NCBI GenBank assembly: GCA_021817755.1
Contig: JAKAGC010000048.1
Location: 1 to 12,485, forward strand
Source of the DNA: Acidobacteriota bacterium
GTDB taxonomy: Bacteria; Acidobacteriota; Aminicenantia; UBA2199
Length of the DNA: 12,485 bases
Direction of reading: 5' to 3'
In this document: one piece after another, positions 545 through 7,040 of the stretch
Numbering within the stretch: position 1 is the stretch's first letter
How the letters are laid out: every line of letters starts with the position of its first letter
Translations under genes and position numbers: made by a program
Notes under the pieces: model-generated
The model's database searches: none
Told to the model about the DNA's origin: nothing
The model's input: the letters and a program-made list of their open reading frames with translations, nothing else

Positions 545-2464
545 TTAATTGAATGAAATAGATATGTTAGCAGGCAACCACACTTTTACTTTTATTTTAT
601 CTTTTTCGGCAGGGCTATACTCCCATGATTTAAGAACTGATGAGATCGGTGGTCTCATTTCGTCCATCAAATATTCAGGGTACTTAATATCCCTTACAAA
701 TCCATTTTGATCCAATAGTATGGTGACCTGTATTGAAATTTTCTGTTTACTATATAGTTTTAATACTTTTTCAGGGAAATTCAATTCAGAAGCATTGAAA
801 TTACTTTTGCCGCTGAATTTATTGGGCTTCTTTGTGATCGCTTCCAGGGGAACTATATCGCCAGCTTTCACATTGAGTAATTCCGGTTTATTTTCGGTTT
901 TTGGTGTAACAACAGGGTCTTTCTTCGGATCTTGAGAAACAGCAGTACCCGAAGGAGTTACAGGTGCATTCTGCGGAGGTGTTTTGGATTTATCCGTTGT
1001 TTGAGGTGGGTTTTGAACAGCAGGTTCTTTTTGTTGCGGCTGTTGTTGTGAAGGCTGCGGTTGAACCTGGGAAACAGTCTTTTGATCTTTGATTTGTGCA
1101 CTCTGAATTTTTTCCTGCTGGGTTTTCCATTCTTTTAGCTTCAGAATCTCCATGTCTCTCGATTTTTTCTCTTCCAGGGTCTGTGCCGTTTTTTTCTCGA
1201 TAGCATCAAGCCGTTTTCGGTACTCTTCATCCAATTGAGCTGTCATTTTGGCCATCGCTTCTTTTAATTCTTGCGCAGATTTCATATCTCTTTTCAGTTG
1301 AGTTTCGTTTTTACCCTGCTGTGTAATGTACCAGAATGCAACCGCACCAATAATGGCAATAATAATAGCAGCTACTCCAATGAAAATCTTAAGCCCTGAA
1401 CTTTTCTTTTCCTGGATAAGCGGATGAATTTCTTCCAAAGGTAACGGTGATGCCACAGGTTGTTCGACAACTTTTACCGGTTCTACAGGAATAGGTTTCA
1501 CGTAAACCGCTTCTTTCTTTATTGCAGTATCTTCTTTTTCAATAGTATCCATGTATAATAAATTCATGAAATATGCAATAATGAAGGTGCCTGTAGATAC
1601 TTCGGATACATGAAAAAACTGACCGATATGGTCTTTCATTTCCTTCATTGTAGAGAAACGTTTTTTGGGATCCGGATTCAAGGTTTTGCTGAAAAACTCC
1701 ATAATATTTTTCTCGAAATCCGCTTCATCTTCAGGAAGAAGAGTTAATAATTCATTCGGGATTTCTTTTATTTTCGCCTCAAAGGAATTCATATCCCCAA
1801 GGGGGAAATAATTACCGCAAAGTAAACGGTAAACGATATTTCCAAGATGAAATACATCCGATTGCGGAAGAAGAATATCTTCCGTGGAAAATTCAGGCGC
1901 CAGCATTTCCTTAAATTTTTCACGATTCTGTTCTGCAACCAGGTGATTCTTTCTTAAAAATGGAAAAATACCAAAATTCTTTAATACCACTCTCCCGTCA
2001 TAATCGACAAAAATATTATCAGGTGTTAAAAATCCATGATATGATTTAATTTTACTGAATTCCTCCTGGGAAGCAGTATCCAGGATATCGGCGATCGATA
2101 TAACTATTGAAAAAGCAAGATCCAGATCGATGACTGTTTGTTTTTTTTCTGCATCTTTAATGATCTGGTCAAGGTTACGTCCCGATAATAAAGGATAAAT
2201 CATAATAATTCCGTCTTCGACGGAATCGATACTTTCAGGTGATAATAAATTCCTAATTTTTGATTCATGAATTTCTTCCGACATAATGTTTAACAGGTTA
2301 ATCACATCAGGAAAAGAAGCAACTTCCGGTTTTAATTGAACAAGAGTACAATGATTACGGGTTTTATTTTGTTCGATTTTTCCCGCCCTATAATAAGTCC
2401 CCATCCAATCGGAATCGGTTTTGTCAAAAATAAAATGATTATGGATTATTTTGTAATCGCTCAT
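545..2464 (-). CDS. membrane-anchored pseudokinase with C-terminal TonB-like domain
   Basis: A 639-residue protein. Residues about 1-285 have the layout of a Hanks-type Ser/Thr kinase: an HRDLKPxN-like segment (143-150), APE (189-191), a DVFxLG helix (203-208) and a DPxxRF ending (265-270). The catalytic residues are gone: the VAIK lysine position appears to be Gln, the HRD aspartate is replaced (HGF, 143-145), DFG is NFG (163-165), and no glycine-rich loop is visible. A single membrane helix (358-381) is followed by a charged coiled coil (385-460), a Pro/Gln-rich linker (464-525) and a domain (530-639) with the TonB C-terminal pattern (LDQNGFVRDI, W614, PA, beta strands). Cytoplasmic kinase fold and periplasmic TonB-like end are inferred. 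Signalling by phosphate transfer is unlikely; binding or scaffolding is more plausible. GGAGG precedes the ATG. It has its own promoter and terminator. Confidence 0.85.
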   Translation of the reverse strand: MSDYKIIHNHFIFDKTDSDWMGTYYRAGKIEQNKTRNHCTLVQLKPEVASFPDVINLLNIMSEEIHESKIRNLLSPESIDSVEDGIIMIYPLLSGRNLDQIIKDAEKKQTVIDLDLAFSIVISIADILDTASQEEFSKIKSYHGFLTPDNIFVDYDGRVVLKNFGIFPFLRKNHLVAEQNREKFKEMLAPEFSTEDILLPQSDVFHLGNIVYRLLCGNYFPLGDMNSFEAKIKEIPNELLTLLPEDEADFEKNIMEFFSKTLNPDPKKRFSTMKEMKDHIGQFFHVSEVSTGTFIIAYFMNLLYMDTIEKEDTAIKKEAVYVKPIPVEPVKVVEQPVASPLPLEEIHPLIQEKKSSGLKIFIGVAAIIIAIIGAVAFWYITQQGKNETQLKRDMKSAQELKEAMAKMTAQLDEEYRKRLDAIEKKTAQTLEEKKSRDMEILKLKEWKTQQEKIQSAQIKDQKTVSQVQPQPSQQQPQQKEPAVQNPPQTTDKSKTPPQNAPVTPSGTAVSQDPKKDPVVTPKTENKPELLNVKAGDIVPLEAITKKPNKFSGKSNFNASELNFPEKVLKLYSKQKISIQVTILLDQNGFVRDIKYPEYLMDEMRPPISSVLKSWEYSPAEKDKIKVKVWLPANISISFN

Positions 2465-2522: not shown

Positions 2523-2599
2523 TCAAATTTTTTTATTCTAAAAAAAAAGATGAACAAGGACCTGTTGAAATTATTTTTTAATTATGTTAAAAATGAGAA

Positions 2600-2604
2600 A
2601 GAGG
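2600..2604 (+). promoter_or_regulatory. ribosome binding site that sets the amidase start
   Basis: AGAGG sits 9 nt before the ATG at 2614. The in-frame ATGs at 2584 and 2593 have no such site and would add a lysine/arginine-rich tail not expected in this family, so 2614 is preferred. Confidence 0.65.
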
Positions 2605-2613
2605 AAAATAAAA

Positions 2614-3456
2614 ATGGCAGGAAATTTGAGAGAACTTAAAATAATCGATCATCGATTATGTAAAGGGGATGGGACACCTTATCCGTTTAAAGCTTGTAAC
2701 AATACAGGCGGTCTTATTGAACACAAATATTTGGTTATTCATTACACCGCAGGCCCCACCGCTAAATCGGCTATCAATTCATTTTGTAGTGAAAACGGAA
2801 ATGCATCGGCCCATGTGGTTATCGACAGGAACGGGGAAATCACCCAGCTCGTTCCATTTAACCGTGTGGCCTGGCATGCCGGTATCAGTTCATGGGATGG
2901 TTTAACCGGATTGAATAATTATTCAATCGGTATCGAACTGGTTAATGCGGGACGGTTGGAAAAGGTAGGCGATAAATGGAGAGCATGGTTTGGGAAATTG
3001 TATGATCCTTCGGATATTATTGAATTAATCCATAAAAATGAAACTACTGTAACCGGATGGCAAACATATCCCCAGGAACAATTAGAGGCCGCATTGGAAT
3101 TATCGAAATTACTGGTCCAGGAATATCACTTACTCGATGTTATCGGACATGAAGACATAGCCCCGGGAAGGAAATCCGATCCCGGTCCTGCTTTTCCCAT
3201 GAATAATTTTAGATCAACTGTTATGGGAAGAGCAGATGATATCGATGTTCAATTTATTACCACAACCGAATTGAATATCCGTACCGGCCCCGGTTCCGAA
3301 TTCCCTAAAATAATCGAGACCCCACTTCCTTCGGGAACTACTGTTGAAATAATCAATAGTAAAGGTAGCTGGCGGTTTGTCGATGTCCTGGAAAAAGTAA
3401 ACGATGCAATGGACTTACAAGGATGGGTGCACGGGCGATATTTGAGAAGAAAATAA
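2614..3456 (+). CDS. N-acetylmuramoyl-L-alanine amidase (Amidase_2) with SH3 domain
   Basis: This zinc hydrolase cleaves the bond between muramic acid and the L-Ala of the stem peptide. Counting from the ATG at 2614 (280 residues), the Amidase_2 fold covers about 10-200. The zinc ligands are His43 (VIHYTAG), His179 (GHEDIAPG) and Asp189, with catalytic Glu108 (SIGIELVN) and Lys187; the His-x9-Asp and Lys-x-Asp spacings match AmpD. Residues about 215-280 form a bacterial SH3 domain (LNIRTGPG to GWVHGRYL) expected to bind wall material. No signal peptide is visible, so it either acts in the cytoplasm on recycled muropeptides, as AmpD does, or leaves the cell by another route. The gene faces ftsB convergently, 43 bp apart, with no obvious terminator between them. 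The longer ORF from 2584 (290 aa) is less likely. Confidence 0.92.
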   Translation: MAGNLRELKIIDHRLCKGDGTPYPFKACNNTGGLIEHKYLVIHYTAGPTAKSAINSFCSENGNASAHVVIDRNGEITQLVPFNRVAWHAGISSWDGLTGLNNYSIGIELVNAGRLEKVGDKWRAWFGKLYDPSDIIELIHKNETTVTGWQTYPQEQLEAALELSKLLVQEYHLLDVIGHEDIAPGRKSDPGPAFPMNNFRSTVMGRADDIDVQFITTTELNIRTGPGSEFPKIIETPLPSGTTVEIINSKGSWRFVDVLEKVNDAMDLQGWVHGRYLRRK

Positions 3457-5504: not shown

Positions 5505-7040
5505 TTAAAAAGGCCAGAAAGATCTCCAGCCATTGGGAAGTAATTTTGCCACATCGTTTAATATGACGAAAGCCATTAATGCAATTAATATGGCAAAACC
5601 GATATTCATTAAAATTTCTTTTACTTTCTGACTAAATTCTTTTCTTACAATCGCTTCAAGTGTGTATATCAAGAGGTGACCTCCATCCAGGGCCGGAATG
5701 GGAAATAAATTGACAAGCCCCAATTGAAGAGAAATAAACGCAATTAGTAAAAAGAAATTGGAAAGACCGCTCTGTAATGCCCGTCCTGAAAATTTTGCAA
5801 TTTCAATAGGACCTGATAATTGCTTCGGTGATAATTTTCCTACGATCATCTTTTTAAAAGAACTGAATACCAACCCCGATAGATTGATACAGTCATTAAA
5901 ACTCTTTTTTAATCCTGCAAATAATCCATAACTGGTTTTGATGGAAGGCGAATAGGCAATCATCATTGTACCTATTATTCCTTTTTCGTGGGCATAAAGT
6001 TTTACAGGTAATCCCTGCATATCCGAAAATGTTTTCGCTTCATTCAGGTTTTCAAAATCCTTTGAGATTATTCTGTACCATGCATTTCTTCTTAACACAT
6101 CAAAATCCGGTGCAGGCAATTTTTTACTAAGAATGCGTGCCATCTTCTCAGCATTTTCATAAGTATCAAAATCCCCACTTTCTACAAAAAACACTTTGCG
6201 AGGAGTTACATTTATATTGAGTGGTTTATCTTTCCGACTAATCTGAAAATTAAGGGGAACTCCTGAATTTTTGGCTATTATATTAACCAGTTCAAAGTAA
6301 TTCATCGGCTGGTTATTTATTCCTGTAATAATATCTTCTTCTTTTATTCCACTCTTTGCCGCAGGTGATCCAGGGGCTACAGATGCGATCAATGTTTTAA
6401 AATTCCAATATATACCTGCTTCTCCTACTCCGTATTGCGAGACAGAGCGGATATTCATTTTCCCTGAGATAACCTTTGAATCCCTTTCATATTCGACTGA
6501 GAGTATTGAATTCGGGTTAGAGCCGATCGTTAATTCCAGTTCTTTCCAGGTTTTAATTTCGCTCCCATCTATTTTACGGATGATATCCCCTTTACGTAGT
6601 CCGATTTTTTCTGCCGGTGAACCCATATCCACATAACCGATTTTTGGGGATTCTTTTTTATAGGAATCGATTTCAACCCCTGTTATGTTTATTATAGTAA
6701 AAATTACATATGCCAGCAGTAAGTTCATCACTGAACCGGCTACCAGGACCAAAATTTTTTGCCCCCTATTTTTCGCCTGGAATTCATCCGGTTTCAAGTT
6801 ATTCTCATCCCATTCTTCTTCCCCAGCCATTTTTACATAGCCTCCCAGAGGAATAAGACTAACACGGAAATCCGTATCTCCGTATTTTTTTCCAAAAAGG
6901 CGTTTTCCAAAACCGAAAGAGAAAGTCTCTACCCTGACCCCCACCATCCGTGCCGCGATAAAATGGCCGAATTCATGAATCAGTACGATGATTCCCAGCA
7001 CGATGGTAAAAGATACAATTGTACTCAATACATTCATCAT
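5505..7040 (-). CDS. rseP: RseP-like M50 site-2 intramembrane metalloprotease with SPOR-like insert
   Basis: A 511-residue membrane protease; in E. coli RseP cuts anti-sigma factors and signal peptide remnants within the inner membrane. Zinc motif HEFGH (22-26) lies in the first helix, and the third ligand is in NLFPIPALDGGH (444-455). Two PDZ domains follow each other at about 120-200 and 205-280. Residues about 283-349 are extra: they separate the usual end of the second PDZ (NVTPRK) from the G-I-I-G segment that normally follows at once, and they look like a SPOR domain. This explains a length some 60-70 residues above the roughly 440-450 usual for RseP. Membrane helices follow near 425-450 and 475-495. 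The ATG at 7040 has GGAG 8 nt upstream. It is the last gene of the uppS-cdsA-dxr-rseP operon, a common arrangement. Confidence 0.95.
   Translation of the reverse strand: MMNVLSTIVSFTIVLGIIVLIHEFGHFIAARMVGVRVETFSFGFGKRLFGKKYGDTDFRVSLIPLGGYVKMAGEEEWDENNLKPDEFQAKNRGQKILVLVAGSVMNLLLAYVIFTIINITGVEIDSYKKESPKIGYVDMGSPAEKIGLRKGDIIRKIDGSEIKTWKELELTIGSNPNSILSVEYERDSKVISGKMNIRSVSQYGVGEAGIYWNFKTLIASVAPGSPAAKSGIKEEDIITGINNQPMNYFELVNIIAKNSGVPLNFQISRKDKPLNINVTPRKVFFVESGDFDTYENAEKMARILSKKLPAPDFDVLRRNAWYRIISKDFENLNEAKTFSDMQGLPVKLYAHEKGIIGTMMIAYSPSIKTSYGLFAGLKKSFNDCINLSGLVFSSFKKMIVGKLSPKQLSGPIEIAKFSGRALQSGLSNFFLLIAFISLQLGLVNLFPIPALDGGHLLIYTLEAIVRKEFSQKVKEILMNIGFAILIALMAFVILNDVAKLLPNGWRSFWPF

Follow-up and report, generated by a model that had tools for sequence, protein, structure and literature searches.

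A predicted SPOR-fold domain with kinship to RlpA inside the PDZ region of an RseP protease from uncultured Aminicenantes bacteria

RseP-type proteases are membrane proteases that relay envelope stress, and their periplasmic PDZ domains serve as the gate. What they respond to in addition to trimmed substrates is, to our knowledge, unsettled. The window investigated here, a contig stretch of 12,485 nucleotides from an Acidobacteriota bacterium (assembly GCA_021817755.1), encodes an RseP with additional residues in the PDZ region. What is this stretch, where did it come from and what could it do for the protease? A SPOR-derived module spliced into the PDZ gate would represent a natural experiment on the coupling of wall state and proteolysis. 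The literature search found no paper pairing SPOR with M50 or site-2 proteases; one publication, which deals with the E. coli division protein DrpB, mentions the SPOR domain and RseP twice each.

The protease, its insert and the proteins that share it

The gene and the parts of its product are located as follows.

5505..7040, minus strand: rseP, site-2 (M50) intramembrane metalloprotease of 511 amino acids (ORF list)
6963..6977, minus strand: HEFGH zinc-binding motif, residues 22-26 (translation)
6468..6641, minus strand: first PDZ domain, residues 134-191 of the match (Pfam PDZ_2)
6207..6401, minus strand: main part of the second PDZ domain, residues 214-278
5988..6194, minus strand: predicted SPOR-fold insert, residues 283-351 (69 amino acids), absent in insert-free relatives (AlphaFold2, fold comparison, reciprocal RlpA SPOR profiles)
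5841..5924, minus strand: long helix, residues 373-400, positioned like the H1 helix of the PCT in E. coli RseP (model secondary structure)

With 313 bits against TIGR00054 (NCBIfam, cut-off 147.55), matches to Peptidase_M50 and two PDZ stretches (Pfam), the HExxH motif and a C-terminal DG motif, the protein is an RseP. H, E, G and H of the HEFGH motif are invariant in 27 aligned rows. The nearest named relatives belong to Candidatus Aminicenantes and Acidobacteriota MAGs. M50 core, two PDZ domains and the long helix are common to the window RseP and the enzymes of E. coli (7w6x), Aquifex aeolicus (9j82/9j83) and Kangiella (7w6y). By its position, helix 373-400 would be the equivalent of H1, which rests on the membrane in E. 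coli RseP; according to passages of PMC7728848, H1 contacts cleaved RseA in that enzyme. The same passages describe deregulation of E. coli RseP by mutations of the PDZ tandem and by combined mutations of the strand and helix after it.

The boundaries of the insert were derived from an alignment of 47 RseP rows, of which L065 stops short of the junction; no ORF was obtained by the motif rule for three of 29 loci (L011, L012, L014), which were left out. Since insert-free relatives run from ..TP.. almost directly, within about a dozen residues, into ..IG.., and the window RseP has 69 residues more, the insert is placed at about 283-351. Positions 5994-6194, for which the earlier note had proposed a SPOR-like domain, encode residues 283-349, and both peptides quoted there were found in them. 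The domain also sits where it had been proposed, at the junction of the second PDZ domain and the following segment, between TM2 and TM3 as judged by hydrophobicity. This region is periplasmic in E. coli RseP (passages of PMC7728848). The sequence match to Aquifex RseP halts at residue 282 and restarts at 376, and the 441-residue Aquifex chain lacks the extra domain. In the full RseP model the match to the Aquifex PDZ tandem spans residues about 123-361 and skips some 68 residues of the model. The most likely site of the insert is therefore the loop that precedes the final strand of the second PDZ domain (about residues 358-363), upstream of the long helix.

Region searches of a large protein set added eight distinct RseP proteins that bear the insert (P0002 and P0004-P0010); a third region search of this set yielded no more. 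The stretch recurs in these eight with 34-81% identity (82% for P0002 over the region searched) and is thus not an assembly artefact. P0004 is the protein of genome G002, named RIP metalloprotease RseP of Candidatus Aminicenantes at NCBI. With the whole protein, matches were obtained in 59 of 60 genomes, including the window genome (G000). Besides G000, only G002, of the same genus, aligns over residues 2-500 unbroken among the matches listed; the remaining long matches listed come in two pieces, the first breaking off at residue 283 or earlier and the second starting at 344-368. No long RseP match other than the insert-bearing protein was counted in G000 (80% complete) or in G002 (87% complete). 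The insert was found in one lineage of uncultured Aminicenantes bacteria.

Other RseP proteins show additional residues as well. In the comparison of RseP loci 13 of 80 gave no ORF and were left out. The enzymes L071, L073, L075 and L095 from Peregrinibacteria and WOR-3 are long like the window RseP, L071 being of similar length, and none of the four matches the insert or RlpA profile. In L073 (Peregrinibacteria), L075 and L095 (both WOR-3) the PDZ region is longer by 69-95 residues, which by eye suggest a further PDZ domain. The RseP of L077 (Acholeplasmatales) has 82 extra residues after the HExxH region and before the second membrane segment.

Kinship with RlpA SPOR domains and history of the insert

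The assignment as SPOR domain, put forward from the letters alone, was borne out by a profile search and a structure prediction. Pfam SPOR (PF05036) lies near its cut-off of 21 bits, giving 18.3 bits (E 0.003) for the window RseP with hmmscan and 22 bits, above the cut-off, in a six-frame search of the genome. A profile of 18 RlpA SPOR domains gives stronger evidence, with E values of 1.9e-8 for P0002 and 5.3e-8 for P0001 (nominal set of 100,000 sequences); strong matches are confined to these two of nine inserts, the others being weaker, down to E 0.73 (P0007). The 18 domains were collected with the insert profile and therefore do not constitute a random RlpA sample; one of 21 rows in a search of the reciprocal profiles (G003:C71, E 0.0098) was left out, and for profiles and trees insert columns filled in fewer than seven of nine rows were removed. 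The window insert reached 38.4 bits, compared to at most 7.2 bits for 3000 shuffled sequences, of which 2555 were reported at all. Reciprocal profiles link insert and RlpA SPOR, with an hhalign probability of 98.2. The other SPOR protein of the window genome, which scores better in the six-frame search (60 bits), was not matched by the insert profiles.

In the AlphaFold2 model the insert adopts a beta-alpha-beta-beta-alpha-beta, RNP-like fold. Solved SPOR domains occupy ranks 1, 2, 3 and 7 of the fold comparison list (VIA-align), with the SPOR domain of Pseudomonas aeruginosa RlpA among the best. The hmmscan score below the cut-off and the mere two of nine insert-bearing proteins matched there would fit a divergent loop or an assembly error in place of a SPOR domain. 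This explanation is highly improbable, being contradicted by the six-frame SPOR score, the RlpA profiles, the shuffles, the AlphaFold2 model, the fold list and the eight other insert-bearing proteins. Profile and model evidence together indicate that the insert is a SPOR-fold domain whose nearest kin are the SPOR domains of RlpA, and they make secure a domain that lies near or under the Pfam cut-off. RlpA SPOR domains (P. aeruginosa 6i05/6i09; Aminicenantes L052, L053) stand at the end of a DPBB protein, whereas the insert interrupts a PDZ domain in a membrane protease. Pfam gave no DPBB match in the window RseP; it thus carries the SPOR relative of RlpA without the lytic transglycosylase domain of the latter.

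In the tree with the RlpA SPOR domains all nine inserts group together (99/98), separated from RlpA by a long branch; the program warns of long branches here. For the core tree 33 of 47 rows were kept, after removal of rows with fewer than 380 core residues and of exact duplicates (L005 equals P0004). In this tree insert-free G001 and G003 fall among the insert-bearing rows with weak support (84/75), and a single clade of insert-bearing proteases was not rejected in 18 rows of the core-tree set (AU p 0.343). One gain, perhaps plus one loss, would be the simplest history suggested by these trees. In the insert-free proteins L006 (G003) and L007 (G001), of the same genus, the linker between the second PDZ domain and the PCT is about four residues longer than in most others, possibly a scar of insert loss.

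Identities were compared in seven pairs of insert-bearing proteins. The insert is more conserved than the second PDZ domain in three (76/72, 78/49 and 78/72%) and less conserved in four (78/88, 35/39, 80/81 and 74/83%), and its identity is lower than that of the membrane core in all seven. It consequently changes roughly like the second PDZ domain and faster than the membrane core. Reading frame and core residues of the insert are intact even at 35% identity.

Putative binding site and readings of the function

Two sites of the insert are needed for the comparison with known SPOR domains.

6180..6182, minus strand: codon of Glu287, at the place of RlpA Gln270 and FtsN Gln251 (column count)
6072..6080, minus strand: codons of Trp321-Tyr322-Arg323, of which Trp321 and Arg323 correspond to FtsN Trp283 and Arg285 (alignment)

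Passages of PMC6895207 describe side-chain contacts from Gln270 and arginines 302, 309 and 311 in the RlpA complex, reduced septal localisation of FtsN on mutation of Gln251, Ser254, Trp283, Arg285 or Ile313, and the importance of Gln351, Ser354 and Trp416 in DamX. The fold alignment starts with model residue 12 at RlpA residue 266, and model residue 16 equals 270 if no gap follows. The glutamine of strand 1 (RlpA Gln270, FtsN Gln251, DamX Gln351) is kept in 18 of 18 related RlpA SPOR domains and absent from all nine inserts, where it is replaced by Glu (eight) or Lys (one). At the place of Arg309 the inserts have Arg in two cases (window, P0002), Ile in six and Val in one, compared to Lys in 16 and Arg in one of the 18 RlpA domains, L051 being shifted by one in the alignment. 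The place of Arg311 is Ile or Met in all nine inserts; it tells little, since it is non-basic in 17 of 18 RlpA domains as well (L051 again shifted by one). At the place of Arg302 the alignment is insecure. Trp occupies the place of RlpA Leu307 and FtsN Trp283 in two inserts (window, P0002) and Lys in the other seven. The SPOR domains of CwlC (1x60) and FtsN (1uta) are also among the closest known domains; Gln251 and Ser254 of FtsN correspond to Glu and Asp in the insert, whose wall binding is putative.

The earlier note had suggested a tie between site-2 proteolysis and the septal wall state; in this reading the domain would bind peptide-free glycan at the septum in the manner of RlpA and FtsN and would place or switch RseP where the wall splits. 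In this form the proposal was not supported: with the key glutamine absent in nine of nine inserts and only two of them basic where RlpA has Arg309, the residue counts make canonical glycan binding unlikely, most of all outside the clade of the window. Further, the glutamate would confront the lactyl carboxylate that is bound by glutamine, as deduced from passages of PMC6895207. The SPOR fold, the good match with P. aeruginosa RlpA, and the presence of both Amidase_3 and RlpA in the window genome are in accordance with such binding, and since the window insert keeps Trp321 and Arg323, the equivalents of FtsN Trp283 and Arg285, it may retain residual or changed glycan binding.

SPOR fold, RlpA kinship, the one insert lineage and the site changes were computed here, and from them we infer a repurposed SPOR module of the RlpA type that docks or gates RseP, a role to which we assign a probability of about 0.5. 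Probably once, in one Aminicenantes lineage, a SPOR domain of the RlpA C-terminal type would have entered RseP in the loop preceding the final strand of the second PDZ domain, retaining its fold but not the glutamine by which peptide-free glycan is held. Its position would be periplasmic, with the PDZ gate on one side and the helix at the H1 place on the other; in E. coli RseP, H1 rests on the membrane and comes into contact with substrate. There its sheet face would bind something other than canonical denuded glycan, candidate partners being a wall component of another form, an envelope protein or RseP itself, and this binding would bias when or where the PDZ gate opens. The insert would then be a case of a wall-binding domain with its binding residue altered after the move to a new protein.

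The main rival, doubtful in our view, regards the insert as a spacer, i.e. a thickened periplasmic gate for size exclusion or a tolerated insertion without ligand. Its location in a PDZ-domain loop and the possible third PDZ domain in RseP of other phyla are consistent with this. In five of nine insert-bearing proteins (P0006-P0010) an additional loop of some 26-55 residues separates alpha2 from beta4 of the SPOR fold, so the insert may tolerate disruption and be a mere spacer; G001 and G003, which belong to the same genus and lack the insert, may have lost it, so that it may also be dispensable. On the other hand, fold elements and core residues are retained at 35% identity, the divergence is near that of the second PDZ domain and does not resemble free drift, and Glu is conserved in eight of nine inserts.

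A more specific form of the repurposed module is quite unlikely, namely that RseP reads the wall directly. With Glu in place of Gln the domain would avoid free lactyl carboxylates and prefer a wall-synthesis protein or another form of the wall, and binding or release would move the PDZ gate. Peptide-bearing or chemically modified strands would be examples of such a form. If true, intramembrane proteolysis would be coupled to the state of peptidoglycan.

The extra loop of P0006-P0010 ends in FPIL.R..FS..RP.SIYFD. It gave weak matches (E 0.12-0.98), several with stops, in the DNA of G001 and G002, and may come from a dispersed repeat.

Cell wall setting and gene neighbourhood

Amidase_3 proteins, a family of septal-type amidases, are encoded elsewhere in the window genome and in all eight genomes tested, G000 included; these cells therefore probably make denuded glycan. 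RlpA is also encoded in the window genome. Omp85 proteins, found in two of two genomes tested, indicate an outer membrane.

The argument from gene context, which had linked the insert to nearby wall genes, lost its force. The order uppS, cdsA, dxr and rseP, followed by PGM-like and FtsB/DivIC-like genes, also occurs in insert-free L056 and L060 and thus has no bearing on the insert. The amidase gene of the window, at positions 2584-3456 (plus strand), was found in none of 12 rseP loci of relatives, several of which are short. It encodes a protein with Amidase_2 and SH3 matches (Pfam), in which a signal peptide was not obvious by eye. The product of 545-2464 (minus strand) has a protein-kinase-like domain at its N-terminus (Pfam Pkinase, 40 bits); a membrane helix and a long linker rich in Q and P lead to a C-terminal part that appears TonB-like by eye and has no Pfam match.
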